DNA of 64,000 nucleotides, from the NCBI GenBank assembly GCA_034231615.1, contig CM067306.1, forward strand, positions 43,076,761 through 43,140,760, in the 5' to 3' direction. Position numbers and translations under genes: made by a program. The stretch comes from Meghimatium bilineatum. Its lineage: Eukaryota > Mollusca > Gastropoda > Stylommatophora > Philomycidae. Shown in pieces: positions 2,218 through 27,947 of this stretch. The notes beneath the pieces were generated by a model. It saw only the letters and a list, made by a program, of their open reading frames with translations, ran no database searches and was not told where the DNA came from. Each line of letters begins with the position of its first letter. Position 1 is the stretch's first letter.

Positions 2218-2311
2218 CTCTTCCGATAGATTTCAAGTTGTTCTTGATCAAGCCTAAGTACTGAGAAATAGCTTTTTCTGTCACAAACTTTCTTTTATGA
2301 CTGACAAGCTC
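2218..2311 (-). CDS. Exon, nucleotidyltransferase helical region
   Basis: On the minus strand an acceptor (TTGACAG) precedes 94 bases that read ELVSHKRKFVTEKAISQYLG followed by LIKNNLKSIGRG, ending in donor GTAAAC with one base left over (phase 1). RlaP-type nucleotidyltransferases have an equivalent stretch, EL..HR..FL followed by a Y.G......LK.I.RG helix, just after the catalytic core. The open frame, good splice borders and family match together support a real exon. The substrate of eukaryotic members is not known to me, so I assign only the fold and likely nucleotidyl transfer. Confidence 0.75.
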
Positions 2312-2349
2312 CTGTCAAGTGTAAAAATCATAACATATATATAGCAATA

Positions 2350-3016
2350 ATTATGATGCAGAAATCCAGGCAATTAGTGTGGCAGCTAAAAAACTGCTGA
2401 ACTCCCAACTCTGACCTACAGCCTGTGGTATTCCTGACAGATGCAAGGTCAGTGCTTCAAGCTCTCCAGTCTGGAAAACTAACAGACTTGAAAAAACTAC
2501 TTAGCGAATTGTCTTACCAGTATAGGGTAACCATGCAGTGGATACCCTCTCACTATGGAATATCAGGAAATGAAAAAGCAGACCAACTGGCTAAGGAAGG
2601 TGCTGCCGAAGACCAACCAGATATACCAATCACCTACCATAAGAAAAAACAGATGATCAAGTCAATAAGAAAGCCACAAACACCAACACAAGATGACTAT
2701 CATATTATGAACAGACCAGAACAAGTTATAATTCTACGTCTCAGAACAGGACACAACCGACTCCGCAGTCACATGTATACAAAGTTCAAGATTGGCAACA
2801 TGGCCATATGTACATGTGGACAGGCAGCACAGAGTGCCAAACATATACTTCAAGAGTGTTCTGAGCATGAAACGCTGAGGCAGACATATTGGCCAGAGGA
2901 AACAACAATGGAATCAAAACTCTATGGGACACTGTATGAACTACAAAAGACAGTGAGTTTTATTACAGAATTACAGATATAGACATGTTTCAAGTGAACG
3001 AAAGAAGAAGAAGAAT
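2350..3016 (+). pseudogene. I-clade-like LINE, RNase H and C-terminal end of ORF2
   Basis: From 2425 the frame is open to a stop at 2982. It reads VVFLTDARSVLQAL, then MQWIPSHYGISGNEKADQLA, the latter half of a type I RNase H domain with the acidic and H...N.KAD motifs. It then has a cysteine/histidine knuckle (CTCGQAAQSAKHILQEC) typical of the C-terminal end of I/Jockey-group LINE proteins. Upstream, AISVAAKKLLNSQ continues in another frame, so the copy is 5' truncated and frameshifted. The element ends at about 3016 with AGTGAACGAAAGAAGAAGAA, a tail that matches two SINE-like families elsewhere in the window. RNase H would remove RNA from the cDNA hybrid during target-primed reverse transcription. 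Confidence 0.85.
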
Positions 3017-3039
3017 AACATATATACACGTTATAATAC

Positions 3040-3192
3040 CAACATAGATGTGACAGGTCGTTTGGCCCAAATAAAACTGTGACAATGCTTTTCTGTTCTC
3101 TGGACTACATTCTACTGGAAATTTAGTAGGATCATTATCCTGCTACATGAGAGATGTAGCGAGAGTTTGAGAAGGAGTGCTAACAAATAAAT
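3040..3192 (+). repeat. SINE-like family B copy
   Basis: Matches the copies at 3214, 7857 and 28255. Shared blocks are GTGACAGGTCGTTTGG, CAAATAAAACTGTGAC, TTCTCTGGACTACATTCT and GTTTGAGAAGG. The copy ends close to the next copy of the same family, in the same orientation. Confidence 0.7.
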
Positions 3193-3213
3193 AACACATA
3201 TATATATATATAT

Positions 3214-3375
3214 AACATCCGCCAAAGATGGACGTGTCGGGCCATTGGCGCAAATAAAACGGCGACACAACACATTTCTATTCTCTGGACTATATCCTGC
3301 TGGAAATCTAGTAGGACCATGGTCCTGCTACAAGGGAGATCGAGCGGGAGTTTGAGAATGAAGAAGATAACATAA
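3214..3375 (+). repeat. SINE-like family B copy
   Basis: Best-preserved copy: CCAAAGATGGACGTGTCGGG, then GGCGCAAATAAAACGGCGAC, TTCTCTGGACTATATCCTGC, a short inverted pair around AGTAGGACCATGGTCCTGCT, and GAGTTTGAGAATGAAGAAG. Its central part and tail are also found in family A repeats. Confidence 0.75.
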
Positions 3376-3494
3376 TGCATTATATGTGAACACACTGCCA
3401 ACAGGATATATATATATATGGACTTACACTCAGGTGGTAAGGATACACAAGATATACTGTTCATAAAAATAAAAGCAACATGATTTTAAACATG

Positions 3495-3735
3495 CATCAA
3501 AATTTTATTTTAAGGAATTAATGTTTCAACCTCGACATGAAGAAAGTGTCAGACATAATAAACTAAATCAAACCTGTCTCATTCCCAACAGTCCACTGAC
3601 TATGCTGGTTCATCCTCTGCATTTGGTTCTGGCGATGCCGGTCCATAAGAACAGGATCTCTGTATGGTCTTCTAACCCAAATACCAGTGTCTTGCAGTCA
3701 GAATGTTACCATCTGACCTAGTCACGTTTGCTACA
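3495..3735 (-). pseudogene. Tc1-like transposase fragment
   Basis: Minus-strand frame reads QDTGIWVRRPYRDPVLMDRH, then RQNQMQRMNQHSQWTVGN. This matches the stretch of Tc1-family transposases just before the second catalytic aspartate (RRPYRGPVLT.RHR..RL.WA..H..WT...W). The expected catalytic D of the following LFTDESRF block is not clear, frames break and no terminal repeats were recognised. It is a dead fragment inside the intron between exons 2311 and 5895. Confidence 0.75.
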
Positions 3736-3804
3736 AGAAAAACCCATAGGCTTGAAAAAAATCCACTGTGCCATCTTACTCTGTGTGCTGTCTTGCCGCC
3801 CCCC

Positions 3805-3990
3805 CCATGCTAACCTATAGTCAAAGTGACCCAGAAGTCATGCTCAAGTCAAATATACCAAGTCAAAAGGCATAGTTATCACAGCAAAGCTGTAAAACCA
3901 TAACACAACACATTTCACTCTTCTACTACACCCTGCTAATTTGCAAGAGTTTGAGAAAGATGGCAGAAGAAGAATACTCCACTCATTGTC
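3805..3990 (+). repeat. SINE-like family A copy
   Basis: Shows GTCAAAAGGCATAGTTATC, CAGCAAAGCTGTAAAACC, ACACAACACATTTCACTCTT, CACCCTGCTAATTTGCA and GAGTTTGAGAAAG followed by GCAGAAGAAGAATA. Corresponding blocks occur at 27370, 32150, 35140 and 50150. Confidence 0.7.
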
Positions 3991-4185
3991 AGCAGATGTA
4001 GCCTTCACTCATTGTCAGCAGATGAAGAAACCACTCATTTTTGGCAGATGAAGAAACCACCCATTGTCAGCAGATAAAGACTCCACTCATTGTCAGCAGA
4101 TGAAGAAGCCACTCTTTTTTGGCAGATGAAGAAACCACTCATTGTCAGCAGATGAAGAAACCACTCATTATCGACAGATGACTCC
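3978..4185. repeat. 26-bp minisatellite
   Basis: About eight copies of a unit near CACTCATTGTCAGCAGATGA plus AGAAAC. It starts exactly at the tail of the SINE-like repeat that precedes it. Confidence 0.9.
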
Positions 4186-4489
4186 TGCTTTAAACTAGTA
4201 ATAATACTCAGACTTCTACTGAAGCTCACAATTAGAGATTTATAAATGAGAGAACTTTGATGACTAACCTTCCAAAGTGGACTCATATATGCATGTTCCT
4301 CTACAAAAAGCAGCTGAAAAAAATATTGAAATATGAGATGTTAAGGAAACAGTAGATGTATTTGTATGTAAGGAAATAATATATGTATGAACAGTAAACA
4401 TTTTATGAAATAATGAGCAATCATGTTTTAGCACAATGTTTACATTTTGCAGAAAGTAACAAATATTACATGGATATGTCAGGATTGTT

Positions 4490-4690
4490 CATTTGATCTC
4501 TGTGGCTTAGTACGTGTACACCATTTGATCTCTGTGGCTATGTACATATAAACCATTTGATCTCTGTGGCTTAGTACATATAAACCATTTGATCTCTTTG
4601 GCTTAGTACGTATAAACCATTTGATCTCCTTGGCTTAGTACATCTAAACCATTTGATCTCCATGGCTTAGTATGTATACACCATTTGATT
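4490..4690. repeat. 32-bp minisatellite
   Basis: Six copies of CATTTGATCTCTGTGGCTTA plus a 12-base remainder (GTACGTGTACAC or GTACATATAAAC). Regular spacing without unique spacers, so not a CRISPR array. Confidence 0.9.
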
Positions 4691-4754
4691 TGTGTTCAAG
4701 AGTTCTTGGGTTTGATGCCTGGTCATGATGTCTTGTTTACCTGTGTATTTTTTC

Positions 4755-4990
4755 TAAAGTTCCTGAGAATTACATATTAAAAGATATGATACCTCATTGA
4801 AGAATTTACTTGAAAGTAGCTGACGGGGGAGGGAGGTGTGCAAGATGTAGGTAGAAATACAAGGGAGAGAAACAAAAAATAGACAGGTTAGTCTAGCATA
4901 GTGCACCACCAAGGCAAGAGACATGAGAGTCAGAGGATGTTGGAGGTCCATTACAGCCAACCTTCACTGTGGAGATTGCACCTGATAATG
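4755..4990 (+). mobile_element. RTE-like LINE 3' end (family F), plus strand
   Basis: Matches the 3' part of the family F reverse transcriptase best seen at 49500-49950 on the minus strand: AAAGATATGATACCTCATTG, CACCACCAAGGCAAGAGAC, GCAGCC-like ACAGCCAACCTTC and a final TGATAATGATGATG. Trinucleotide ATG/ATC repeats at the 3' end are typical of RTE-clade LINEs. Strongly decayed. Confidence 0.75.
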
Positions 4991-5019
4991 ATGATGTATA
5001 TATTAATATATACAATAAA

Positions 5020-5240
5020 TCATCGTCATCATTATTAAGTGCCGTCTCTGCAAATGAAGGTTGGCCGCTTGATGTACACTTTTCTAGGCTAAACTGCAAC
5101 CTGTCCATCTCATTATAGTACTTTCCCCCTTTTATCTCTGCCTACCTCTTGCTCGCCTCCCCTTGACTTTACCCTCAAGTACGGTCTTCAATAAGGTGTC
5201 ATTTCTTTTAATATGTCCAAAATATTTTATTTGCTTGGTG
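5020..5240 (-). mobile_element. RTE-like LINE 3' end (family F), minus strand
   Basis: Reverse-oriented copy of the same 3' end: CATCATTATTAAGTGCCGTC, TCTGCAAATGAAGGTTGG, GCCTACCTCTTGCTCGCC, TTTACCCTCAAGTACGGTC. It faces the copy at 4755-4990 tail to tail with about 30 bases between. Confidence 0.8.
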
Positions 5241-5264
5241 TTTATTTAAAAAATTCAATGAATA

Positions 5265-5345
5265 TTAAATACTATGCAATATTGGTTAAATTAATTATGA
5301 AAGAAATACCAGATCATCATTTACTTCTAGAATGACACTACATCC
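5265..5345 (-). repeat. Partial duplicate of exon end and donor
   Basis: This stretch resembles 5850-5930: TGCAATATT, AGATCAT, TTCTAGAATGACACTACA against CTCTAGAATAACAACACTAC. On the minus strand it reads CSVILE followed by GTAAAT, a copy of the end of exon 5895-6029 (CSVVILE then GTAAAG). It is a pseudo-exon tail lying 3' of the real exon. Confidence 0.65.
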
Positions 5346-5469
5346 TAACCGTAACCTCATATTAATATATGCAACAATTCCATGAATGAGACTGTGCAAT
5401 ATTCTCTATCTATTGTTTTTTCTCTGCTTTTCTGGTAAGGCTTTGTAGGATTGAATGAGATGGTTTTTG

Positions 5470-5850
5470 GGCTATGGCACATTTGCTCGTTTGATATGCA
5501 GTAATATTTGGACGTCTGAGAATGTTGGTACCACCTTCTTCTTGGTATTCCTCTGTATCTTGCTATTTCCATTTTCATATTGTATGCTCTTGCCACTGGC
5601 CAATAGGGAGTTCATTCTCAATAAGTGACAGAACCATTTCAGTCTATGTTTTTCACTATATTTGCCCACGGACATTGTTCAAACAGTTCCTGTAATGTCT
5701 TCATTTCTCACATAATCGCTTCTTGTTCTGTTTGCTGCTTTTCTTAGACATCTCATTTCACATGTAGTAAGATATTTCTCTCTTGTTATTTAGTTAGTGT
5801 CCATGCAATGATAACACAATGTTGGTATGAACAATGAATTTAAGTGCAAT
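5470..5850 (-). pseudogene. LINE reverse transcriptase C-terminal fragment
   Basis: Minus-strand frames read EKYLTTCEMRCLRKAANRTR, then YVRNEDI and HRLKWFCHLLRMNSLLAS with a basic RNTKKKV tail. This is the usual C-terminal order of a LINE ORF2. It lies between the two copies of the exon end (5265-5345 and 5850-5930). Confidence 0.75.
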
Positions 5851-5894
5851 ATTAATTAAGTTAATCACCAAAGAAACACAAGATCATTCTTTAC

Positions 5895-6029
5895 CTCTAG
5901 AATAACAACACTACATTTTAAAAGCATCTCACAGAATGTACGAGCTTCGTAGGCTCCATACTCTACAGATTTATCCAAGCCTCGGCTTTCAAATGTTTCA
6001 GGAAGTTTCTTTGTTGCAGACATCAAAGT
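5895..6029 (-). CDS. Exon, nucleotidyltransferase middle region
   Basis: Minus-strand acceptor TTCCACAG, 45 codons in phase 0, donor GTAAAG. It reads TLMSATKKLPETFESRGLDK, then SVEYGAYEARTFCEMLLK and CSVVILE. RlaP-type nucleotidyltransferases have D..Y.EL+KFC.L.L...P.ILELL after the catalytic strand pair, and this exon matches that layout. A third metal-binding acid of the fold may be the E of SVEYGAYE, but I cannot confirm this. The exon joins 8474-8649 in frame (0/0). Confidence 0.8.
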
Positions 6030-6119
6030 CTGTGGAAAATGTTAAACATTGATCAATTTAAAACATATCAATGAAGGTAACACACATCACCATCTATGTA
6101 CCATGTCCTTTACAGTTTA

Positions 6120-7320
6120 CAGAACATTGTCATCACTGCCGCTCTATAAGTCTCTCGGTTCTGTGAAAGCTGCCTAGCCCCTTACAGTCATATTCAGAAG
6201 GTCTTCGATGTGCTATGTTCATCATAGTCTTGGTCTGCCTCTTATTTTATTTCCTGGAACTTTTCCCTCCATGATTAATCTTTCTAAACCATTGTGACTT
6301 TTTATATGCCCAGAGTATGTTACTTTGCATTTTTTGATAATTTTGAGGAGTCTTCTTTTGAAGATTCCAGAGTGTTGGTTACTAAACACAATAGCAAAAA
6401 GAAAACTACACTTGTTTGGTCATATAAAGAGACACAACTGTTTAGAAAGACAAACAATGGAGGGCAGAGCACCTGGGGAGGAGGAAAGGCAGACCAAGAA
6501 GACAATGGACTGACAACATTAAAGATAACATGAATATGTCATCGGAAAATGCAAGCAGCATCGCCAAAGACACAGAAAGGTGCAGGGAGTTCATTGGGAA
6601 GACAATATTCTTGAGAGAATACATCACTTGACACAGTCTTTTTCTATGTCCTGGTCTTTGCGAACATCTTCATTAATTCGTCTTTTTGTCCATGATATTC
6701 TTAGCACCTTTCTATAACATTTCACTTCGAATGCTGATATTTTCTTTTCCATTGTAGATGTCATTGCCCACATGTCACAACCATATGTTGTCAATGGAAA
6801 AATATTGTTTCTTAATAGTCGTAACTTTGTTTTTCTGTTTGCCCCATTGCCACAGATTTTTCATCTGTGATGTTTATTTTAGGGCCATTGCTAATCTCTT
6901 TCTGATCTTTGTTGAGAAATTCCCCATGGTGTTATAATTAGTTAACCTGAGATATTCAAAGCTGCTCACATTTTCTAGTTGTTCTTTGTCAATGACTACT
7001 GTAGGTGTGAGTTAATTTCTGTTGATATGCTGATATACATTATGTTTGCCTTTTTTGCATTGAGAAGGTTTTGTGTCAAAATATGACGTTTAACTGATAT
7101 AGTGTTCTAAACCTATGGAACTTCTTGACATTATGGCGGTGTCATCTGCATATACAATTTCTTGAATCTCATGTCCTCAGGCATTAAGTGGTTTCAACTG
7201 TTCATAATGTGGACCTTCTCATACATTTCGTGTGATGTTATATGAGTATATATTGAACAGATGTGGTGAGAGGATACATCTCTGTTTGACTCCTTTGTGG
7301 AACTCAAACAAGATGAGAAC
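6120..7320 (-). pseudogene. RTE-like LINE reverse transcriptase, interrupted
   Basis: Minus-strand fragments in order: HKGVKQRCILSPHLFNIYS (palm motif before the active site), EIVYADDTAIMS with the catalytic YADD box, TTYGCDMWAMTSTMEKKISA, FEVKCYRKVLRISWTKRR, then after an interruption KCKVTYSGHIKSHNGLERL and EGKVPGNKIRGRPRL. Many stops and frame changes, so inactive. It is split by a plus-strand fragment of a related element at about 6348-6627. Confidence 0.85.
6348..6627 (+). pseudogene. Nested RTE-like LINE 3' fragment
   Basis: Plus-strand reading IPECWLLNTIAKRKLHLFGH, IKRHNCLERQTMEGRAPGEE matches the element at 38811-39098 (IPECWLLNTITKK, GHIKRHNCLKRQIIEGRVP). It ends TCTTGAGAGAATACATCACT, the same end as the copy near 39120. 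It lies inside the minus-strand LINE and divides it, so it inserted later. Confidence 0.75.
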
Positions 7321-7856
7321 AAATGCAGAACTTCTTTGGTGAGTCAACCATTATTGTATGTTTTTAATTCAAGGTATTTAAAAGCATTCACTTCCTTTAA
7401 TTTTGAATTATCTATTGTAAGATTGTAATAATGTAGTAATATATATTGTAAGAATTTCAGAATAGCACTTTGCAAATATTTATACAGTGTAATTCAGCTA
7501 TAACAACTTGATCCAGACCAACAAAATATGTATGTAATAAATGAGGATTCTATATATACAGTACATAAACATATATAGATTTTGAAAAGCATTGTTATAT
7601 AGGAAAATTTGTTATAAAATAATGCGCTATAGAGGGATTCTACTGTATAGTGCTTCAATATTGTCTTATTATGTTGGTGTCCAAATTTAAATGTTTCAAT
7701 ATATGTCATAGGCAATCATGAAAGACATGATCAAAAGACTTTGTGAAGTCTGTGCTTGAGGGATATATGACATTTATAAATGTCACTTGCTCATGTTGTG
7801 ACATTGCAGTGTAGCCTACAGTTTGACTTTTACACATGAAATTACAGCAACAAAAA

Positions 7857-8037
7857 ATATTTAGTACATAACTGCCAAAGTGGTTGTGTCGGACCATTTG
7901 TGCAAATAAAATGGTGATACAACACATCTTCATTCTCTGGACAACATTCTGGTGGAAACCTATTAAAACCATTGTCCATCTACAAGAGAGAACCTGTGGG
8001 AGTTGAAAATAAATGCTAATAAATAAAACATATTTAA
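7857..8037 (+). repeat. SINE-like family B copy
   Basis: GCCAAAGTGGTTGTGTCGG, CAAATAAAATGGTGATAC, ATTCTCTGGACAACATTCTG and ATTAAAACCATTGTCC match the copy at 3214. The tail reads GTTGAAAATAAATGC. Confidence 0.7.
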
Positions 8038-8473
8038 AATTAGTGCACAAAGATATATCCTGTGCCCTCTGACATCTCAATGCTCTTTACAAATAAAACT
8101 TAAATTTCATTAAAAAAACAGAGCATAGTGCATAAGTTTCAACTAATATGGATATTCCGTATTAATATAGATTTTAGGCCCCAAAAAACTCACTCAAAAA
8201 ACATAATTTTCTTTTTAAATTTTTTTTAAAAAAAGGTCACTTGGTATTACATTTCCTAGTAATTATTACTAATGCGGACGATTTTATCTCACGCTCATAT
8301 TGAGGGGTGAAATGGAATGGGGGAAAAATATGGGTTTTTATTAGTTTTCTGTGTGTGCTAAATATAGAAAGTTTTTTAAAATATGGAAACAAATTTAGAA
8401 AATGCGGATTTATAAAAAATAAATTGACAGCTATGATAGCATGATTAAAATTTGGTATCTATTCAGGACTCAC

Positions 8474-8649
8474 CTCTGATGGAATGGAGTAGATAACAAG
8501 ATAGTCTTCATCAGATGAATCAGTGCTTAAGTTGTACATAGCACTACCAGCTATGGCCACCAACAATATTTGCTCAGGTTTTAGACTGGACACATGACCA
8601 CCAATTGTTCTCATCAATTCCTGAAGTCTAGTTATGCTGTCTGTAACAG
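8474..8649 (-). CDS. Exon, nucleotidyltransferase catalytic core
   Basis: Minus-strand exon with donor GTGAGT after CCATCAGAG and acceptor either TACTTCAG (start 8649) or GTTACAG (start 8640); both leave two bases before the first full codon. It reads VTDSITRLQELMRTIGGH, PEQILLVAIAGSAMYNL, STDSSDEDYLVIYSIPSE. The G-S motif on a strand-turn-helix followed about ten residues on by D-E-D is the hallmark of the nucleotidyltransferase superfamily (hG[GS] then DxD), and both carboxylates that bind metal and nucleotide are present. The chain likely transfers nucleotides to RNA, DNA or protein; the substrate cannot be told. It joins exon 5895-6029 in phase 0. Confidence 0.85.
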
Positions 8650-8730
8650 CTGAAGTACACAGTTATATGGTTACATGAAGTTTAGTTATGCTATTTGTAA
8701 CAGCTTGAAGTACACAGAAATATGGTTATA
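8622..8730. repeat. Tandem duplication across an exon boundary
   Basis: About 54 bases occur twice: AGTCTAGTTATGCTGTCTGT, AACAGCTGAAGTACACAG, ATATGGTTA, and then AGTTTAGTTATGCTATTTGT, AACAGCTTGAAGTACACAG, ATATGGTTA. The copy covers the first codons and the acceptor of exon 8474-8649, giving a second acceptor-like site upstream. Confidence 0.85.
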
Positions 8731-8827
8731 ATTTATGCAGCATAAGTCAAGTGCATGTGTTGGATTTTGCTAAGGATATGCGTTGAATATTTCTAAATAT
8801 ATGTGTTTGATATTGTTAAGGATATAA

Positions 8828-8914
8828 GTTGGATACTGATATGTTGGATAGTGATATGTTGGATAGTGATATGTTGGATATTGATATGTTGGATATTGAT
8901 ATGTTGGATGGATA
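8828..8914. repeat. 15-bp tandem repeat
   Basis: Five copies of GTTGGATAGTGATAT with single-base variants, then a partial copy merging into a short TA run. Confidence 0.95.
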
Positions 8915-9169
8915 TATATATGTGTGCTAAAAGTGACTTGCATCTAAAAGGTTTAGGATAGAGGTGAGAAACTACTTCTTGAATGCCTGCTTGATGTGGA
9001 CACCGATATCAATGACACATCTAGGATGAGATTTGGAGAGTTATAAACAAACATCATTGTACTCTTGGCAGACACATAGTTGCTCAGTCTCCCCAAACAA
9101 ATGATGTCACAGAGTATGTGGTATGTATGCTGATTGTATGGCTTACTGGTTGAATATGATCCTAATTTT

Positions 9170-11560: not shown

Positions 11561-11744
11561 CAATTCCCTTAAACACCCACATGTTCCGACACGAAAAAAA
11601 TAAATGTTGCTACTTTCAAACTCGCCTTTCTCAAGGTCTCAATCCACTGTTCATAAATGAGACCCACTTGTACCTTTCTAATTATACTCATAGAGTAACT
11701 CAAGATGCAGACTCGTGTTACTTTCTGTGTACTGTTCAACTCCA

Positions 11745-12390: not shown

Positions 12391-12395
12391 AGCAT

Positions 12396-14344: not shown

Positions 14345-15627
14345 CGAGGCGTGTTCAAATGAAAACGGGACTTGTTACACCACGCGTGATAGAGCGCACT
14401 GATATTGATGACATTTTGCACTAGTAATGAGTATCCAATAATTTACATACGGTCACGTGTTCATCTTCCCAGCATGCATATGTGCTGCAGAAGACTGTTA
14501 ACAATATGGCGGGTGTGATTCCGAACCCGTCCAAAGTGAATCAGCGTGCTGTGATCCAGTTTCTTTCATTTGAAGGATGTCAAGCAGTAGACATTCATCG
14601 GAGAATGAAGGCAGCATATGGTGACAAATGTTTGTCGAGGACCAGAGTGATGGAGTGGGTGCGTATGTTTAAAGACGGACGTGAGTTAACGGCAGATCTT
14701 GCACGGCCAGGTCAGGCGCATATTGTTGCAACAGAAGAAGCCATAGTCGTGCTTGATAAAGCAGTACTGACTGACCGTCGTCGGAGCATTCGTTCGCTTG
14801 CAGAAGAATTCCATATGTCAATTGGGACAGCCCACATGGTTGTTCGGAAGAAATTGAACTATCGGAAGGTGTGTTCACAGTGGGTCCCACGGATGTTGAC
14901 TGACCACCATAAGGAAGAACGGATGGGGTGGAGTTTGAACCACCTGATGCGTTACAGGGCAGAGGGTGATGCATTTCTGTTGAGCATTGTGGCATTTGGG
15001 TTCACCAAAACCCAAAAAATTCAAGACACAGGTTTCTGCTGGGAAGGTTATGGTGACTGCATTTTTTGACCATGAAGGGCTTTTGTTGACTGATTTTAAG
15101 GAACCTGGTGTCAACATCAATGCCGCCCATTATAAAGACACTTTAGACAAGCTGCATAAGGCCATCAAGGCTAAGCGACCAGGCAGACTTTCTCAAGGTG
15201 TGATTCTTCTCCACGACAACGCTCGTCCGCACGTCGCAAAAATTGTGCAGGAAACATTGGCAAAGAAGAATTGGGAAGTTCTTCATCACCCAGCCTATAG
15301 TCCCGATTTATCCCCGTGTGATTTCCATTTGTTTGGACCGTTGAAGAAAGCACTAAAGGGACAGCGATTCAACAGCGCCGCAGACGTGAAGACAGCGGTG
15401 ACCACATGGTTCAGAGAACAGCCACGCAACTTTTTCTCGGACGGCATTCGACGTCTACCTAAACAGTGGGATGCTTGCCTAAATGCATACGGAGATTTTT
15501 TCTGATGAACCCAGGTGCATTCTTATTCACAAGTGGTTGCTTTGTTCAATTCCGTTGAAAATATTAAATTGCGTATGATACTTTTTAAATAAATCCACAA
15601 GTCCCGTTTTCATTTGAACACGCCTCG
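14345..15627 (+). mobile_element. Mariner transposon, near intact
   Basis: Perfect 31-bp terminal inverted repeats (14345-14375 and 15597-15627) beginning CGAGGCGTGTTCAAATGAAA, flanked by TA on each side (14343-14344 and 15628-15629), the target duplication of Tc1/mariner elements. Length 1283 bp, the usual mariner size. Identical ends suggest a recent insertion, but the transposase has an internal deletion, so this copy could only move with enzyme supplied from elsewhere. It sits in the minus-strand gene region just downstream of exon 15961-16141. Confidence 0.95.
14506..15505 (+). pseudogene. Mariner transposase with internal deletion
   Basis: Start chosen at the first ATG (14506, MAGVIPNPSKVNQ); the frame upstream has no ATG. 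Frame 1 runs through the helix-turn-helix DNA-binding part (QRAVIQFLSFEGC, RRSIRSLAEEFHMSIGTAH) to LLSIV near 14988. The reading then has to shift to continue as WHLGSPKPKKFKTQ in frame 2 and reaches the stop at 15503-15505. Between them the block around TGDE, which carries the first catalytic Asp, is missing (about 60 bases by comparison with the family). The second Asp (LLHDNARPH) and third (YSPDLSPCDFHLFGP) remain with 34 residues between, the DD34D spacing of mariner. The protein should be inactive. Confidence 0.93.
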
Positions 15628-15960: not shown

Positions 15961-16141
15961 CCGTAAGTCTTTCACCCATGTAATAAGTAGGTCAAATAGT
16001 TCCTGCTTGCAGACTAATGTCTCTGGATGATGGTAATATGACTTAAGTTTTATCATAATTGTGGATGCTGCTGAAGGCAGATTTTCTTCCTTTATTTCCA
16101 GGTGACTTGATTTGAATGTGTTCTCTACATGTTGTAGCAAC
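15961..16141 (-). CDS. Exon, nucleotidyltransferase C-terminal region
   Basis: Minus-strand acceptor TACCACAG, 181 bases, donor GTAAGT after CTTACGG. It reads LLQHVENTFKSSHLEIKEEN, LPSAASTIMIKLKSYYHH, PETLVCKQELFDLLITWVKD, LR. RlaP-type proteins end with a similar P....REAVD.LL...R helix. The first base completes an AGG codon with the two bases left by exon 21976-22099. It ends in phase 0, while exon 8474-8649 needs phase 1, so another exon or a gene boundary lies between. Confidence 0.78.
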
Positions 16142-16845: not shown

Positions 16846-17046
16846 GCTGTTGCAGATTCAGTTTAAGTGTCCCTTGTACAGCAGTAGTCTGGTCTCAGTC
16901 AAAAATATTTTGACTTGTTCATTTGTATTCAATTTGTTAATGTTATTGTGTTCAGTTTTGTAGTTTCTGTTCTTTTCATTAAAGTTGCACATACAGGTAA
17001 GTATGTCAATCATAAAGTTTTATCTTGAGCAGGTTAATAGAACTGA

Positions 17047-19379
17047 TATCATCTTACTTCATACAACCTTATAGTTTCATATATATTTCATCTTACTTCA
17101 TACAACCGTATAGTTTCATATATATTTCATCTTACTTCATACAACCGTATAGTTTCATATATATTTCATCTTACTTCATACAACCTTATAGTTTCATATA
17201 TATTTCATCTTACTTCATACAACCGTATAGTTTCATATATATTTCATCTTACTTCATACAACCTTATAGTTTCATATATATTTCATCTTACTTCATACAA
17301 CCGTATAGTTTCATATATATTTCATCTTACTTCATACAACCGTATAGTTTCATATATATTTCATCTTACTTCATACAACCTTATAGTTTCATATATATTT
17401 CATTTTACTTCATACAACCGTATAGTTTCATATATATTTCATCTTACTTCATACAACCGTATAGTTTCATATATATTTCATCTTACTTCATACAGCCTTA
17501 TAGTTTCATATATATTTCATCTTACTTCATACAACCGTATAGTTTCATATATATTTCATCTTACTTCATACAGCCTTATAGTTTCATATATATTTCATCT
17601 TACTTCATACAACCGTATAGTTTCATATATATTTCATCTTACTTCATACAACCGTATAGTTTCATATATATTTCATCTTACTTCATACAACCGTATAGTT
17701 TCATATATATTTCATCTTACTTCATACAACCTTATAGTTTCATATATATTTCATCTTACTTCATACAACCGTATAGTTTCATATATATTTCATCTTACTT
17801 CATACAACCGTATAGTTTCATATATATTTCATCTTACTTCATACAACCGTATAGTTTCATATATATTTCATCTTACTTCATACAACCTTATAGTTTCATA
17901 TATATTTCATCTTACTTCATACAACCGTATAGTTTCATATATATTTCATCTTACTTCATACAACCGTATAGTTTCATATATATTTCATCTTACTTCATAC
18001 AACCGTATAGTTTCATATATATTTCATCTTACTTCATACAACCGTATAGTTTCATATATATTTCATCTTACTTCATACAACCGTATAGTTTCATATATAT
18101 TTCATCTTACTTCATACAACCTTATAGTTTCATATATATTTCATCTTACTTCATACAACCGTATAGTTTCATATATATTTCATCTTACTTCATACAACCG
18201 TATAGTTTCATATATATTTCATCTTACTTCATACAACCTTATAGTTTCATATATATTTCATCTTACTTCATACAACCTTATAGTTTCATATATATTTCAT
18301 CTTACTTCATACAACCGTATAGTTTCATATATATTTCATCTTACTTCATACAACCTTATAGTTTCATATATATTTCATCTTACTTCATACAACCGTATAG
18401 TTTCATATATATTTCATCTTACTTCATACAACCGTATAGTTTCATATATATTTCATCTTACTTCATACAACCTTATAGTTTCATATATATTTCATCTTAC
18501 TTCATACAACCGTATAGTTTCATATATATTTCATCTTACTTCATACAACCGTATAGTTTCATATATATTTCATCTTACTTCATACAACCTTATAGTTTCA
18601 TATATATTTCATCTTACTTCATACAACCTTATAGTTTCATATATATTTCATCTTACTTCATACAACCGTATAGTTTCATATATATTTCATCTTACTTCAT
18701 ACAACCTTATAGTTTCATATATATTTCATCTTACTTCATACAACCGTATAGTTTCATATATATTTCATCTTACTTCATACAACCGTATAGTTTCATATAT
18801 ATTTCATCTTACTTCATACAACCTTATAGTTTCATATATATTTCATCTTACTTCATACAACCGTATAGTTTCATATATATTTCATCTTACTTCATACAAC
18901 CGTATAGTTTCATATATATTTCATCTTACTTCATACAACCGTATAGTTTCATATATATTTCATCTTACTTCATACAACCTTATAGTTTCATATATATTTC
19001 ATCTTACTTCATACAACCTTATAGTTTCATATATATTTCATCTTACTTCATACAACCGTATAGTTTCATATATATTTCATCTTACTTCATACAACCGTAT
19101 AGTTTCATATATATTTCATCTTACTTCATACAACCGTATAGTTTCATATATATTTCATCTTACTTCATACAACCGTATAGTTTCATATATATTTCATCTT
19201 ACTTCATACAACCGTATAGTTTCATATATATTTCATCTTACTTCATACAACCGTATAGTTTCATATATATTTCATCTTACTTCATACAACCGTATAGTTT
19301 CATATATATTTCATCTTACTTCATACAACCGTATAGTTTCATATATATTTCATCTTACTTCATACAACCGTATAGTTTC
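17047..19379. repeat. 39-bp satellite-like array, about 60 copies
   Basis: Unit reads TTTCATCTTACTTCATACAA then CCGTATAGTTTCATATATA. Copies are almost identical; the main variation is CCGTATAG against CCTTATAG. Rarer variants are one CATTTTAC copy near 17401 and two ACAGCC copies near 17500 and 17570. Because 39 is a multiple of three and one frame has no stop, the array reads as a 13-residue repeat of ISSYFIQPYSFIY. That frame opens at a TTG rather than an ATG, so I do not call a gene. The array lies in the intron between exons 21976-22099 and 15961-16141. Confidence 0.97.
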
Positions 19380-19589
19380 TCAGTCTTTTTTCAATAGGCC
19401 TACACAGTGAAGTTTCTATATATTATGTTAACACTTTTTGCCAATCAAAAACTGTTGCAAATTCAGGGACCCACTCCTACTTAATCTTGTAATACAAATA
19501 CATCAACACCCACTTTTTTTTTTTACTGAAATAGTATGAATAAAAATATATAATCTTTAGAAAAAATTTATCAAAATTCAAACAATTTC

Positions 19590-19720: not shown

Positions 19721-19737
19721 GATGGTTCTTGTAGCTC

Positions 19738-19990
19738 ATGGGAAAACGTACAACAAATGACTGTATAAGTGATGATGATTCTTGTTCCATGACTAGAATA
19801 AAGGAATTTGGTTTGAAATGTGGTGTCGCTAGAAAGGAGTGGATCCATGGGCAAGAAAGAATGACGATCAATCAGCTACATACTGGGACCGTCCGTCAAC
19901 GTGTAATGGCGACAACACTCAAGGAGAGATCTGAGCACCTATGGACTTCTCCGGAGTGCAGTGATGATGATTCAACGACTAACTAACTAA
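19738..19990 (+). mobile_element. 3' end of an unnamed transposable element
   Basis: Open from 19738 to the stop at 19984. It reads SDDDSCSMTRIKEFGLKCG, RMTINQLHTGTVRQRVMATT and ERSEHLWTSPECSDDDSTTN, then CTAACTAACTAACTAATA. It pairs with the inverted copy at 11220-11560. The ACTA repeats after the stop look like a retrotransposon 3' tail. Family not recognised. Confidence 0.6.
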
Positions 19991-20234
19991 CTAATATACT
20001 GCAGGGGCAACTATTAGTGAAGTGGCATTCAGTTCAGGTGATCCATGGTTCAATTTCCAGTTCAAATGAAAATATTTCTATATCACCAATGACTCCTAAG
20101 TCAACCCAGCCAGCTTGACACTAACTACTTCATCCCCTGGTATGCAATTGGTCAATGTAAAATATAGGCATAAGACCATATTTCTCAATATACCTCACTG
20201 ATGTAGACAAGAGAAAATTTTACTTTACTTTACT

Positions 20235-21565
20235 TGCATACACTGCAAGCAACATTATGGCTACACTACATATACTACAAGCAACATTATAACTACACTA
20301 CATATACTACAAGCAACATTACAACTACACTACATATACTACAAGCAACATTATAACTACACTACATATACTACAAGTAACATTTATGACTACACTACAA
20401 GCAACATTATGACTAGACTACTAGCAACATTATGACTACACTACATATAATACAAGAAACATTATAACTACACTACATATACTACAAGTAACATTGTGAC
20501 TACACTACAAGCAACATTATGAATAGACTATAAGCAACATTGTGACTACACTACATATACTACAAGCAACATTGTGACTACACTACAAGCAACATTATAA
20601 CTACACCGCATAGGAATACACTACAAGTAACATTGTGACTACACTACATATACTACAAGCAACATTATAACTACACTAAATATACTACAAGCAACATTAT
20701 AACTACACTACATATACTACAAGCAACATTATAACTACACTAAATATACTACAAGCAACATTATAACTACACTACATATACTACAAACAACATTGTAACT
20801 ACACTACATATACTACAAGTAACATTGTGACTACACTACATATACTACAAACAACATTATGACTACACTACATATACTACAAGTAACATTTATGACTACA
20901 CTACAAGTAACATTATGACTACACTACAAGCAACATTATGACTAGACTACTAGCAACATTATGACTACACTACATATAATACAAGAAACATTATAACTAC
21001 ACTACATATACTACAAGTAACATTGTGACTACACTACAAGCAACATTATGAATAGACTATAAGCAATATTATGACTACACTACATATACTACAAGCAACA
21101 TTGTGACTACACTACAAGCAACATTATAACTACACCGCATAGGAATACACTACAAGTAACATTGTGACTACACTACATATACTACAAGCAACATTATAAC
21201 TACACTAAATATACTACAAGCAACATTATAACTACACTACATATACTACAAGCAACATTATAACTACACTACATATACAAGCAACATTGTGACTACACTA
21301 CATATACTACAAACAACATTGTGACTACACTACATATACTACAAACAACATTATGACTACACTACATATACTACAAGTAACATTTATGACTACACTACAA
21401 GTAACATTATGACTACACTACAAGCAACATTATGACTACACTACAATTTCTACAAGCAACATTATAACTACACTGCATAGGTCTACACTGCAAGCAACAT
21501 TATAACTTCACTACATACACTACAAGCAACATTATGACTACACTATTTATAGGCTACTACAAGCA
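20235..21565. repeat. 31-bp minisatellite with higher-order duplication
   Basis: Units such as ACTACACTACATATACTACA plus AGCAACATTAT mixed with shorter units lacking CATATACTA. A block of units including the markers GACTAGACTACTAGCAAC and CTACACCGCATAGGAATACA occurs twice exactly 529 bp apart (20411 and 20940; 20601 and 21130). Lies in the same intron as the 39-bp array. Confidence 0.95.
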
Positions 21566-21975
21566 ACATTAACCGCAACAATCATTAAATTTGCATGCAA
21601 CTTAATTACCAACATTTGTAAATGTGATGTAAAGTGAAAGGGCATATTTCCTTAATTGAGATTAAATGTGATAATCTTCACAAGTGATAGGTTATCAGCC
21701 TATCCCCCAACTTTCCTTAGTAGACTCATATGACATGACACATGACTGGAGAGAAGACAGTGGTGCTATTCTTTGTCCTCTAAGCTAGAAGTCCAGGTCC
21801 TAGTTTCCATGTGGGTAATTCTATAATTTCTATTCAACTGAACTGATGAAAGCTACAATTGCTACATACACATATGAAAGCTAAATACCATTCATTCACA
21901 CTATAATCTATACAATTGGATTGCAGACACATTATCATTTCTCCTTCACGACTCATGACAGCTACCACTACATAC

Positions 21976-22099
21976 CTAAATGATTCGCATATTGCAGTGA
22001 TTGTTGTGTGTCCTCGAAGCTTCATAGCACTATCTTTGGATTTCTTCCCAACTGCACCAACAGCTTGACCCAAACATGCTTCTAAGAATCCCCGAGTGC
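21976..22099 (-). CDS. Exon, nucleotidyltransferase helical region
   Basis: Minus-strand exon of 124 bases, acceptor ATATGCAAAG (weak pyrimidine tract), donor GTATGT. It reads TRGFLEACLGQAVGAVGKKS, KDSAMKLRGHTTITAICESF with two bases over. The K.A..L...I....E pattern matches the helix after the core of RlaP-type proteins, where K.AMHL.R....... is usual. Phases fit exons 27804-27947 and 15961-16141. The larger open frame around it on the minus strand is intron read-through. Confidence 0.72.
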
Positions 22100-22354
22100 C
22101 TTTGCATATGCAATTCCAGAACAGTATATCAATAAGGGATATATGTGTGCTAAATATGATATCACATACAAACTTAATACAAATATAACATACACTGTTC
22201 AGTATTTGCAAAATACTTTATTCTGGCTTGTGATGCCCAAGCACCCATAAACATAGCAAATATTTTCTGCTACCCAATTTACCAACCACAGATTTATTCT
22301 ACAATTAACTCTTTCATGATGGAATTTTCCCCAGGGTTTGGACATAATTCATTT

Positions 22355-22630
22355 TAGGCTAACACATGTGGTTGCATCTGTGGATCTCACCAATGGCTCA
22401 CTAGACAAACAACCCATGCAACAGAAAACCTTAGTAGATGACATTCCATTATATTGAAACTCTCTTGTGCACGCTATGTAGCATGTCATCTATACAATTA
22501 TATACCACCTATGAGTAGAAGGCTCCTTCAATAGGCATTGCAGTAAGCCAAAAGCTGAAGTCTCCTGGGTATGAAAGAAAGCTCGGAAAAACCACCTCAC
22601 TGCACACAGGAAGTAAGAAATAATTGCTCA
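22355..22630 (-). repeat. Dispersed repeat family E, inverted copy
   Basis: The reverse complement gives TTGTATAGATGACATGCTAC, CTAAGGTTTTCTGTTGCATG, GAGCCATTGGTGAGATCCAC, matching 13935-14078. The right part (CTCCTGGGTATGAAAGAAAG, CTCGGAAAAACCACCTCACT) recurs at 48845-48945 and inverted at 44570-44690. Confidence 0.8.
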
Positions 22631-22904
22631 CAATTCCTGGGGTTCTCAAACAATTTTAGGCTAAATGTTTGGACCATAACATGATTTAGGCAAAAGCTTC
22701 CTAAAGACACAGTATTAGCTACAGCAGGTCATATAAGGTATCAAAAGAAAGATAATTGAATGTGGAATCCATATATAATATAAAAATATAAGAATTGTAA
22801 CAACAAAATACAAAAATTACACCACAAACAAAAATGTTAGATGAACATACATTATTTTACACATATTTTGTTCTACTCATCCTCAATAATTTCCCTTGTA
22901 TTGA

Positions 22905-23180
22905 AATGTTGATATCCAATCTGACTAAAGTAGATGCCTTGACTATTCATTTCCTAATCATGTTGATATCCATTCTGACTAAACTAGATGCCTTGACTAT
23001 TCATTTCCTAATCATGTTGATATCCATTCTGACTAAACTAGATGCCTTGACTATTCATTTCCTAATCATGTTGCTATCCATTCTGACTAAACTAGATGCC
23101 TTGACTATTCATTTCCTAATCATGTTGATATCCATTCTGACTAAAGTAGATGCCTTGACTATTCATTTCCTAATCATAAT
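22905..23180 (+). repeat. 54-bp minisatellite, five copies
   Basis: Unit GTTGATATCCATTCTGACTA, AACTAGATGCCTTGACTATT, CATTTCCTAATCAT. It sits inside an ATG-started open frame (22834-23214, 126 codons) that reads as an 18-residue hydrophobic repeat (MLISILTKLDALTIHFLI). There is no other coding evidence, and the frame is opposite in strand to the surrounding gene. Confidence 0.93.
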
Positions 23181-24059
23181 TAGTTTATTTGAAGTAAATC
23201 TATCTACTGCCTAGTGTTTTATGTCATTTTTGTGTGATTCATGTCAAATTTCAGAACTGAACTGAATAGGCCCTATTGCAAAACTTCATGAAATATTCCC
23301 AAGTATTGGATTTCTAAAGTTGAACTTTATTCCACTCAATATTATCATTAGGTCTAACTCTAATTTCTGTATAATGTAGTGTAAGATTATCATTGCTGTC
23401 ACTAGGCCTATCTGATTCTTCAGAAACAATAGCAGTGGGAAAACAGTTTTATAATTTTTAGTTATTTTTTCCCTTACCAGATTAGGTCTAGACCTATTTC
23501 TTTTCCGATTTTTAAGAAGTCATAATCTCCCTTGTCAAAATCGAAAACACTGTTGTTTTCTGACACATCACTTGAAATAATATATCCAATTATAAAACTC
23601 AAAGAATAATCAAGCCCAATGTTTGCTAAATCTTTGATATCTCTTAATTAGTGGAAGATGAAGTCATTTTGCTAATTTCAGAAAAGCTGAACCTATCTTG
23701 TTCAAATTTTAATTTAAAATAAATGTTACATGCGTCTAATCACACAGTAACATGAAAGTTTTGTTAACCAGATTTCTAAAGTTTAAACAGCTAAATAAGT
23801 TAATAATAATTCATTTACAATCCTAATTAAGCAAATTTAGATGGCATATCTGTAAGAACGAATAATTGTGGATACTGTAATCTGCAATGATTGTAGTCTG
23901 CAAAGTCTTTCTATTTGCAATGATATATCGTTTTTACGGGCTGAAAGAGTTTAATGAAATTATTTAAAATACATATTGAAAAAAAGGTAGTATATCCTAT
24001 TCAGTGCATAGTCATCAACTCAGTACTTTTTTGCTGTACTATTTGATAAAATTTAGCTA
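23181..24059. other. AT-rich sequence, nothing recognised
   Basis: No exon, repeat array or element end seen; probably intron. Confidence 0.5.
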
Positions 24060-25025
24060 TATGAAAAATCCAGAAGCCGCCATAAAAGTGGAAAGTGTAA
24101 CATCAAAGTGGTTTAAAGTAAAAAAGGAGTAAGACAAGGGTGTACATTGTCAACATATCTGTTTAACATATATACAGAGAACATAATGAGGAATATGAAA
24201 CACAAAACAATGCAATAATAATTCAGATCCATAACATCAGAGGTGTACGGATTCCAGAAATCTATTAGATAGCCAGACACAGTTCTATTAACATCAAATG
24301 AGAAAGACTTATTAAACATAATAAAATCAACAAAATGCTTTAGCAAACAACAAAACCTGTTCCTAAATATGAAAAAAAACCTAAAGTAATGACAACAGAC
24401 AAAGTGAAAATAAGACCTAGAATTAAAATTGATAGCAGTGTTTTAGAAGTGACAAATTTTGAATATCTAGGAGCTAACATAAACAGTTTAGTAGACTTTG
24501 CAGTAAAGATCAGGAGGAGAACAGCAATAGCAATGTAAAATTAAACCACTAAAAATACTGTTGCACAGTCCAAACATGGGAACTAAGGTATGTTTGTTAC
24601 ATACATGTGTGTTTCCAGTGGTGACCTACGGCTGAGAAACATGGACAATAAACAAAATTACAGTCAAGAGAATGGAGGTTTTCAAAATGAAGTTCTATAA
24701 AAGTCCTGAAAATACCATGGAGAGCAAAGAAGACTAACCAAGATGCTAAGAAAAATCAACGTCCAAGACGGTGTACCTTTAAAACACCATATTAAGAATG
24801 AAGTTGGATTTTTTTGGCTATGTGAAGTGACACAATGGAATGGAAAGAGTGTTGTTGGAGGGGTCCGACAGAAGAGGCAAATGTTCAAAAGACGTCGCTG
24901 GACAAGAGATATTCTGGAATGCATGCACATGTCACTGAAGGAGGCGGGGCAACTTGCCAGAGACAGTCGGATTTCAGGAGATTCATAAGGAAGACTATAT
25001 TCCAGAAAGAATAAGCACAAACATC
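24060..25025 (+). pseudogene. RTE-like LINE reverse transcriptase fragment
   Basis: Frames read NPEAAIKVESVTSKWFKVK, KGVRQGCTLSTYLFNIYTEN, then ISRS/FEYLGANINSLVDFAVKI and WRAKKTN, ending RWTRDILECMHMSLKEAGQ and IPERIS. Same family as 38025-39140. Starts just before the QGC..SP-type palm motif and lacks the YADD box; stops and shifts throughout. Confidence 0.82.
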
Positions 25026-25835
25026 AGCACTTGACCACAATCATATATGAATTGCATGAGAAAGATTCTATCAACAATTGAATAAGTGAAGATAGAATAC
25101 CTTGTGAAAGAAAGAACAATTAGATGAATCATTGGATATACTATAACCAGTAATGAATATTAAATGAAACTTGTTGGAAATATTTTAGCAAATGATATAT
25201 AACAATGTATAAATATATGACTATTAGTGATATTTTAAGGAGTTGGAAATTTGAGGTGAATTTTTGAAATTACTATGACTAGCAGTATATAATTATTTGA
25301 ATATGTGATATTGAATGACATGTATAGAAAGAGTTAAAACCACAAAGTATAAGAAAAAATAGAAGAACCATTGAGACATCCATATAAAAGATTTGAATAT
25401 GGCAAAGAACAAATAGAAATACATATGAGAGAGTATGTGAGTATAAATGAAAAGTTGAAAAGGGACACATAAAAAAGTGCAAGGTCGAGACTGCATGATG
25501 CAACCATAGGGACTGAAAATGTAATAGAACAGACAAGAATAATAAGAATGTGTGGGTGAGCACGGTATGTAAGAAGGGGAGAATGCAGGAGAAAGAATAA
25601 ATAATAGGAATCTAAACACAAGTGACAGAAGCTTGTACTATATGTAACAGGAAGACTTTAAAGTATTGTACCATATACCATATATTGTCATGTCTAGACT
25701 AGTATAATCACAACATGTATCCAATGAAGAATAGAGATGTAGATAATACCATTGTATGTATATATTTTGTCTTGTAATTTTAATTTAAAATTTATATTTA
25801 AAAAAATTTAAAAAAAGAGAAAAAGTACGATAATG
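25026..25835. other. AT-rich sequence, nothing recognised
   Basis: Contains overlapping minus-strand frames of 94-108 codons with low-complexity Phe/Leu/Ser content. No domain or splice structure seen. Confidence 0.45.
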
Positions 25836-25839
25836 TGTT

Positions 25840-25877
25840 CTTAGATATATATATACGTGAGTGTGTGTATATATATA

Positions 25878-25922
<45 letters not shown>

Positions 25923-26070
25923 GTGTGTATACATACATAGGTGTATGTATGTATGGGTACAGGGGTAAGACTATGTATGTATATGGGAGGTGTGTGCATA
26001 TATATGATTATGTAGACCCAATTGTGTGTGTACATGTATATGGTATGCATATAGGCATAGAACTATAAGA
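25840..26070. repeat. TA/TG microsatellite
   Basis: Alternating TATATA and GTGTGTAT runs, purest at 25880-25920, decaying rightward into GTATGTAT-rich text. Confidence 0.95.
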
Positions 26071-26179
26071 AAATTCAAAACCTTATATATGTATGAAAAT
26101 ATGATTTTTTGGGGGATTTAAAAAAAATTAAATTAAATTAAATTTTAAAAAAAATCGACAGGTAACACCAGCAGGCAAG

Positions 26180-26650
26180 CAACATAGCATATAATCAACA
26201 GCCAAGCCAGACAGGAACAACACAGAGATGACACAACACAACAAAGAGCACCGACCAGACAGAATAAAGTCCTTATAAGGGCTATAAACTTCATTTAATA
26301 TTTAAAAAAAAATCTTTCTCCACACGTACAATCAGCAGCCGATACTGCACAACCATTGTCAGCATAGACAACTACAGACAACATGTGTTCCAGACCCACT
26401 AAGCGAATGAACAGCACAGGAAAGAAGCAGAAGAAAGCGCTCCAACCAATCCTACACAAAGTCCTTTTAAGGACTACCACCTTATAATCCAGACCGACAC
26501 AGCGAAGGAACAACACAGCAAATAGCTCCGAATAGAAGAAAGAGCTCCAACCAATCCACCACAAAGTCCTTTTAAGGACTACCACCTTATAGTCTCATCA
26601 ATACCGGAGACAGGCAGAGCCACAACATAGTCCATACAAGGACTGCAGCT
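26180..26650. repeat. Diverged tandem repeat, about 119-bp unit
   Basis: Three to four copies marked by CTCCAACCAATCC, CACAAAGTCCTTTTAAGGAC and TACCACCTTATA near 26435-26480 and 26550-26595, with weaker copies at 26270 (AAAGTCCTTATAAGGGCTAT) and 26625. Confidence 0.8.
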
Positions 26651-26654
26651 AGAA

Positions 26655-26850
26655 GGCCCAACAGCGAACCCGGCTAACAGAGCCACATCCTAGCAACAAC
26701 CAGGCAGACAAGCCACAAAAACCACAGGTCCCCAACCGCCTTGATATAACCAATATGGACACCAGTCCTAGGTTGAAAGAGACGGGCCTCGACCATATGA
26801 GGCATAAACCCCTACTTAAACAAACAAACAAACAAACAAACAAGAAAGAA
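26655..26850 (+). repeat. SINE-like repeat with AAAC tail
   Basis: GC-richer 180 bases (GTCCTAGGTTGAAAGAGACG, GGCCTCGACCATATGAGGCA) ending in CTACTTAAACAAACAAACAA. The AAAC tail also ends the family C copy at 47780. Confidence 0.5.
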
Positions 26851-27189
26851 TACATCACATGACAATTGATTTTCTAGGCAATATACATATGTTCAGTAGT
26901 TTTTCCATTACTTTCTGAACTGTCAAGAATTGCCTTAGTCAAAAGTCACAAATTAAACCCTCTTTTAAGCATCCTCCAGGACAATGGTCAGTCCAAATGT
27001 TTCCTTCATGGATTAAAATCCCTTATACACATCATAAGCAAAGGTTGATGGGTTTTGAAAAGCAGCCATTATCAGTCTGTAGCTACCCACTGTATCAGGA
27101 AAAATGTATTCATCTTTTCCAGATGATTTGCTATAATTTATTTCTTTTCAGTTATGTGTTGTTAACAGATTTCTGTGGTAATTTGATTG

Positions 27190-27305
27190 TCAAAACTGTC
27201 AAATATATGTTTCCCATGAGGGAGTTGCTGGGAGGTGGTATTTGTAGCTCTGTGATAAAGGCCACATGCTCTTGCTGTCGCCACATCATGTACAGGGTGA
27301 GTAAC
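27190..27305 (-). repeat. SINE-like family H fragment
   Basis: TGTTTCCCATGAGGGAGTTG, GTATTTGTAGCTCTGTGATA, AAGGCCACATGCTCTTGCTG and CATGTACAGG correspond to 51080-51180, which continues into a tRNA-like head. The head is missing here. Confidence 0.7.
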
Positions 27306-27369
27306 CTCTAACCTCTTTGCCATACATGATAATTTGACAATTACTGAAAAATATTGGATTCATACCATC

Positions 27370-27590
27370 TTCTCGATATGTTCTAAAACTCCTGCAGAAC
27401 AAAATGATGTAGTCCAGAAAATGAAGTGAGTTGTGTCATGGTCTACAGCTTAGCTGCAATATCTGCACCTTTCTGCCTGACACATCAGACTTCAGCATGG
27501 TTTCTGGTTTGATCCTATATGGGATAGGACAGCCAACATATCCCAAAACCATCTTAGTCACATCTTACGGAATGCTTGGAAGGAAACAGT
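27370..27590 (-). repeat. SINE-like family A copy
   Basis: The reverse complement carries GGATAGGACAGCCAACATAT-like text, ACCATGACACAACTCACTT, GACTACATCATTTTG and CTGCAGGAGTTTTAGAAC, matching 50200-50400. Confidence 0.78.
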
Positions 27591-27803
27591 GTCGCTATTC
27601 ATTGATCCCCTTCACTGGATCCATAAGCAGGATCTATACCTAACTTTTGGTAATGATATGAGAAAATTAAGTATCAAATCATCAGGAACAACTGACAAGA
27701 ATGTCAGAAATGTTACAATTAGACTACACATATGTGTAAGAGTGAGAGAAAAGGTAAAGTGCACATGTTTATTTCGATAAATAGAAGAGAAACCTTGACA
27801 TAC

Positions 27804-27947
27804 CTGTCAGAGTCTGATAACTGAGTGACAGTCTGAGATCCTGCCAGTGTTGACTAGCATATATCTCAGCACCTTCACGACAATATAATGCTTCCAGGTA
27901 CCGAGATCTTCCTCTGCACAATGCTTGACCAAAATGTGATACCTCTA
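27804..27947 (-). CDS. Exon, nucleotidyltransferase middle region
   Basis: Minus-strand acceptor CTGTGCAG, 144 bases, donor GTATGT. It reads EVSHFGQALCRGRSRYLEAL, YCREGAEIYASQHWQDLR, LSLSYQTLT. RlaP-type proteins show EL+KFC.L.L...P.ILELL.......Y.S..G..LR..R..FL at this point, and the exon parallels 5895-6029 plus the stretch missing there. The exon needs one base from its upstream partner, but the nearest upstream exon (29340-29521) ends in phase 0. Confidence 0.78.

Follow-up and report, generated by a model that had tools for sequence, protein, structure and literature searches.

An intron-split RlaP-family nucleotidyltransferase module, possibly accompanied by a second, worn-out copy of its fold, on a chromosome of Meghimatium bilineatum

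The window considered herein, a stretch of 64,000 nt (contig CM067306.1, positions 43,076,761 to 43,140,760, assembly GCA_034231615.1), carries two adjoining sets of minus-strand exons, hereafter modules A and B, and appears to harbour a genuine animal gene of the RlaP (PF10127) family, split by introns, on a Meghimatium bilineatum chromosome. The first-pass annotation had described six minus-strand stretches with AG/GT borders and one open frame each; this observation is mostly real, although some borders and exons were missed. Its interpretation as two RlaP-type modules proves about half right, in that the part concerning module B is borne out, whilst module A as a second RlaP module is not established. 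Within each module, the joined frames read without a stop when the minus strand is translated in three frames and the exons are then joined in order. The genome itself looks molluscan, with 50 exon matches, spread over two chromosomes, to PF14830 (Haemocyan_bet_s), a domain typical of molluscs.

The corrected model of module B, as far as found, comprises 251 aa encoded by six exons, two of which lie to the left of the window. Exon 1, the catalytic exon (8474..8649, minus strand, ...ILLVAIAGSAMYNLSTDSSDEDYLVIYSIPSE), contains the GSAMYNL and SDED motifs previously located there and belongs to the PF10127 match; its 5′ border is either 8649 or 8620, with acceptor scores of 0.2 and −1.2, respectively, in a simple splice model. 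Exon 2 (5895..6029, minus strand, TLMSATKKLPETF...EYGAYEARTFCEMLLKCSVVILE), which contains E81, also falls within the PF10127 match and enters the duplicate comparison given below. Together with 2218-2311, it had been proposed as a region following the catalytic exon, and both indeed lie within the RlaP module. For the latter the exon is real but 2218 is not its best border: the frame is open to 2171, the phase of the next exon is kept, and the residues gained fit the RlaP family. Exon 4 is hence placed at 2171..2311 (minus strand, ELVSHKRKF...GRGKHSQSPKKERKLFYQ) by phases and alignment. In alignments with relatives, the space left between exons 2 and 4 is filled by exon 3 (4269..4313, minus strand, LLFVEEHAYMSPLWK), which is 45 bases long, has AG/GT borders and phase 0/0, and had been overlooked inside the window, whilst the three other exons of the module there had been found. 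Left of the window follow, in phase, exon 5 (C9:43075656-43075769) and exon 6 (C9:43074476-43074622), which ends in TGA and whose coding signal is at null level (z −0.25) in a codon-position model. As exons absent from the first-pass annotation also align with relatives, the corrected model is supported.

With regard to family, the earlier claim that an animal genome encodes a nucleotidyltransferase of PF10127 type is upheld by the profile matches of module B to PF10127 and PHROG 388. PF10127 covers residues 25–192 with 39.3 bits (E 7.9e-10; the Pfam gathering cut-off is 23 bits) and is the sole Pfam match above its cut-off, whilst the PHROG 388 nucleotidyltransferase profile, at 111.8 bits (E 7e-32), is the strongest library match. 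The PF10127 match involves the exons at 8474, 5895 and 2171 and, judged from these profiles, exceeds chance; those at 27804, 21976 and 15961, for which the same similarity had been suggested, return no match. By tblastn at E ≤ 10, module B finds 132 of 50,697 phage records, Myrna gp3 and a Lumos-type gene 33 among them, with 47 of the 132 covering at least 80 % of the query and a lowest E-value of 4e-8 among the 30 matches listed. Plasmid records yield 14 matches out of 72,556 (best E 7e-11), none of the 14 over 80 % coverage. Our own RlaP HMM was built from 78 sequences, of which eight derive from annotated phage or plasmid records and 70 from picked loci (74 hand-picked from 208 fetched, less four with in-frame stops). 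It scores 104 bits over residues 26–249 of module B, and PF10127 exceeds its cut-off in all five relatives tested. It is conceivable that module B instead makes a nucleotide signal or oligonucleotide in innate immunity, a partner protein being controlled by a short oligomer, in the manner of HalB in the Hailong system; this is unlikely, however, as a fold in common proves no function, PF10127 stands alone among Pfam families, and no PADLOC model matches module B.

Apart from the present locus, genome searches with module B return one partial copy, 14 Mb distant on that chromosome, and no second intact copy was found. The duplication was segmental and took in the introns: outside the exons, identity amounts to 78.9 % over all columns and to 89.8 % where the alignment is good. 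Within the 50 kb fetched there, neither the catalytic exon nor exon 5 was found, and exon 6 of the duplicate carries three stops. Comparison of exons 2, 3, 4 and 6 (151 codons; 93.3 synonymous and 359.7 non-synonymous sites) reveals 16 synonymous and 17 non-synonymous changes, three of the 17 being stops, corresponding to a pN of 0.047 versus a pS of 0.171 (Fisher p 1.8e-4). As pN is lower than pS, these four exons coded for a protein under constraint in at least one line. Recent phage or bacterial contamination, or very recent horizontal transfer, would agree with matches from phage and plasmid records, these being the collections searched, but is disfavoured to the point of being negligible by the spread of module B over six exons of a 68 Mb contig, the decayed duplicate 14 Mb away and an identity of only 18 to 25 % to eight phage and bacterial relatives.

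The order of parts within module B is as in RlaP, namely GS, DxD, a third acid and a helical C-terminal part. G34, S35, D46 and D48 align to columns that are 100 % conserved in the 78 relatives, and E81, on the strand that follows, occupies the column where 94 % of these carry D52, a conservative change; from its place, E81 is likely to be the counterpart of the third carboxylate and metal ligand. Further along, in the long helix, F167 and Q174 replace a Lys and an Arg (K137 and R144 of L030) that are invariant in the 78 relatives, this invariance being a feature of a phage and mostly actinobacterial sample rather than a stated criterion of PF10127. Due to these replacements, nucleotide binding may differ or the enzyme may be inactive, and module B is not filed in the narrower phage/actinobacterial RlaP group. 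The loss of K and R thus leaves real room for an enzyme that may be altered or inactive, and an extreme form of this would be a pseudoenzyme that retains the metal ligands, has lost catalysis and acts by binding RNA or a partner. Whilst the 100 % conservation of both positions in the sampled relatives speaks for such a protein, the phage and mostly actinobacterial make-up of that sample tempers the point, and retention of G34, S35, D46, D48 and E81, along with purifying selection on four exons, makes it rather improbable. From sequence, then, module B can be taken as a spliced, intact RlaP-family module (PF10127, DNA polymerase beta superfamily), and this extends to its family, its exon structure by frame and homology, the selection on four of its exons and the keeping of its metal ligands.

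Module A, with three added upstream exons in phase, amounts to 310 aa. Exon 1 (33716..33815, minus strand, MSNQDPVHHATDALQ...LCAE; z 0.33 in the codon-position model) begins at a candidate ATG start and ends in phase 1 at a GT donor. A possible acceptor is apparent by eye in its 5′ UTR, and its frame agrees with that of the next exon. Exon 2 (31559..31762, minus strand, AKTQTYACLEAL...MVQQLLI; z 1.45), with AG/GT borders and phase 1 to 1, sits within a 179-aa open frame, and exon 3 (29340..29521, minus strand, DQCTSIISITLLTCPWFELSQ...ASIIDF; z 0.11) is placed by AG/GT borders and phases. For exon 4 the first-pass annotation had given 27804-27947, which is open in frame 2, whereas in frame 0 its first codon is a stop; the phase of the upstream exon puts the acceptor at 27942, so that the exon becomes 27804..27942 (minus strand, VSHFGQALCRGRSRYLEALYCREGAEIYASQHWQDLR; z 1.02). 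Exon 5 (21976..22099, minus strand, TRGFLEACLGQAVGAVGKKSKDSAMKLRGHTTITAICESF) is frame-consistent and has the best coding score of the module (z 1.79), and exon 6 (15961..16141, minus strand, RLLQHVENTFKSSHLEIK...LLITWVKDLR; z 1.20) ends in phase 0. In the simple splice model the acceptors at 27942 (−4.4) and 22099 (−6.2) are weak, whilst the donor of exon 6 is strong (7.2). With 33 kinase and RLIG1 segments (5,843 codons) as its training set, the codon-position model gives a summed z of 2.41 for module A versus 2.88 for module B, with exons 1 and 3 of module A at null level; an earlier, worse-trained version had placed module A below background and module B above it. In all 12 exons the chosen frame outscores the other two, as is partly to be expected of the open one.

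The relationship of module A to RlaP is less direct. No Pfam profile, PF10127 included, matches it above cut-off, and it has no match in PHROG, NCBIfam, PADLOC or PDB, nor a second copy in the genome. BLASTP of module A against module B returns an E-value of 3.6, profile comparison of module A with RlaP yields nothing, PSSM scores reach only z 0.7 to 1.9, and by eye the two modules have no intron positions in common. Our own HMM gives 1.3 to 3.9 bits, a score equalled by 19 of 1000 shuffles when module B is left out of the profile and by nine of 1000 when it is included. The alignment nonetheless runs in order along HMM positions 63–168 (61–163 with module B in the profile), setting LEALY on lElLf and, in exon 6, RLL..HLEIK on RLl..eltv, and leaves the catalytic half uncovered. 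Exon 4 likewise falls into register, at a score short of significance. Given no library match and shuffles as good in nine or 19 of 1000 cases, the proposal that 27804-27947, 21976-22099 and 15961-16141 form a second RlaP module is not established. The accompanying idea, namely that its catalytic half is missing here, is probably wrong in detail, as exons 31559-31762 and 29340-29521 occupy that place, without a GS...DxD-like motif. A scan for such motifs in six frames across 94 kb (the window plus 20 kb to the left and 10 kb to the right) finds only 8474-8649. One alignment sets a TC of exon 3 against GS, a second places this stretch otherwise, and GS and DxD are absent from module A in both. 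With the register of the similarity right but the score only suggestive, module A is somewhat more probably related to RlaP than not, and the exons beside module B may derive from another copy of that fold, now worn out; module A is, at this level of similarity, not filed as a member of RlaP (PF10127).

Whether the modules make up one protein or two depends in part on the junction between them. Exon 6 of module A (phase 0) does not join to exon 1 of module B from acceptor 8649, which needs phase 1, whilst the alternative acceptor 8620 allows a direct in-phase splice into one open frame. Splice scans found neither a linker exon nor a start exon for module B, a silence that decides nothing, as none of the ten accepted exons in the window passes the same cut-off. 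Between the modules lie 7,311 bases with a single AATAAA/ATTAAA hexamer, versus an average of 8.4 when the interval is shuffled (one of 500 shuffles has so few); 13 of 1276 overlapping windows of the same size, the interval itself among them, are equally poor. This interval also contains a broken mariner-like transposon. Two neighbouring genes are somewhat less likely than not: module A, either unrelated or long diverged, would then be an animal gene that ends soon after 15961, and module B would have its start exon between 15960 and 8650. This arrangement would suit the lack of significant RlaP similarity in module A, the intron positions, which by eye differ, and the unjoined phases left by the better-scoring acceptor; it sits less well with modules that adjoin on the same strand, the ordered HMM alignment of module A, the single poly(A) hexamer and the in-phase join through 8620.

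The explanation that we prefer as a whole, held with a little less than even confidence, combines an RNA-end-adding module B, sealing by RLIG1 and an inactive module A on the same transcript. Module B would bind two metal ions at D46, D48 and E81 and would add one or a few nucleotides, template-free, to the 3′ end of a damaged RNA, leaving the break to be closed by an RNA ligase, which in this genome would be RLIG1. Less certainly, the exons of module A may share a transcript with module B and encode a degenerate, non-catalytic copy of the fold that serves in RNA binding or as a scaffold, akin to the inactive units of OAS3. In the HMM alignment, module A keeps the long-helix arginine (SFRLLQ) without the catalytic acids, whilst module B has the acids without that Arg and the Lys. 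The two could thus be imagined as halves of one protein that have decayed in complementary fashion, forming a composite active site across a pseudo-dimer; this is very improbable, but would, if true, give this animal RNA-end nucleotidyltransferase a construction different from that of its bacterial relatives. To our knowledge, which enzymes restore damaged RNA ends before sealing is an open question. An RlaP-type enzyme and RLIG1 in one genome provide a concrete, testable candidate for the end-restoring step in an animal, and the exon map of module B makes cloning and assay possible.

RlaP has mainly been described in bacteria and phages, where it presumably helps in the repair of broken RNA. 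As far as the literature examined shows, it is little studied in animals, and the locus does not, in our view, amount to a new kind of system. Module B agrees with RlaP (PF10127, RNA ligase-associated pol-beta nucleotidyltransferase) in profile and in the order of its parts, and differs in being carried by an animal, in being divided into at least six exons, in having E for D as the third carboxylate, and in having F and Q where all 78 sampled relatives have K and R. The PHROG 388 phage genes are unsplit, whilst module B is split, and it is 21 to 24 % identical to four phage relatives. RlaP of jumbo phages is reported to act together with RNA ligases and predicted to replace lost nucleotides ahead of ligation (PMC7824862). 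The would-be sealing partner here, RLIG1 (C12orf29), is a different enzyme, an animal 5′-3′ RNA ligase; without the human protein, RNA is degraded and oxidative stress is less well withstood (PMC9931718). In the present genome RLIG1 lies on another chromosome (C21; six exon matches of 30 to 81 bits, one with an internal stop), and RtcB gives five matches on C20. In an animal genome, a ligase neighbourhood says little about RlaP association. HalB of the Hailong anti-phage system shares 13 to 16 % identity, its likeness being one of fold only, and that of a relative rather than of module B itself; it makes a DNA oligomer with an effector, unlike the RNA-end role proposed for module B. Finally, OAS3 combines an active nucleotidyltransferase unit with inactive ones, and would follow a similar logic if module A is an inactive unit, although OAS3 comes from another family of the superfamily and the tandem of modules A and B is putative.

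Searches of the genome with module B, the intact spliced RlaP-type nucleotidyltransferase, revealed no second full copy of an RlaP module. A segmental duplicate of module B lies on the same chromosome (C9:57108953-57115037); its exon 6 carries stops, and neither a catalytic exon nor an exon 5 was found there. In module B itself, the acceptor region of the catalytic exon, B1, is tandemly duplicated (window 8600-8720, minus strand), with the repeat encoding AVTNSITKLH lying upstream of AVTDSITRLQ. A similar small repeat also precedes exon B5.

Beyond this, residues 9-65 of module B display weak matches to DUF6616 (17.5, 15 and 16.3 bits, under the cut-off of 27). For module A, the upstream exon set, matches were to T4_neck-protein (residues 36-85 of 310; 12.6 bits) and to UfSP_MPN_N (residues 25-50 of the 209-aa core; 11.9 bits), both of which fall under the cut-off and are regarded as chance.

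Between the two modules lies a mariner-like transposase in two overlapping frames (14431-15505, plus strand). The window also harbours a large minisatellite (17016-19410), with open frames of approximately 790 codons in two frames, as well as fragments at 49526-49957 (minus), 38384-38797 (plus) and 2401-2982 (plus) that are reminiscent of RNase H and of the ends of LINE reverse transcriptases.

With regard to the wider genome, high-scoring kinase exons are, as judged by eye, often paired across the same chromosome pairs, namely C11/C13, C16/C25, C20/C6, C22/C14, C18/C19 and C23/C24. Whole-genome duplication has been reported in land snails, and this chromosome-wise pairing resembles the aftermath of such an event.
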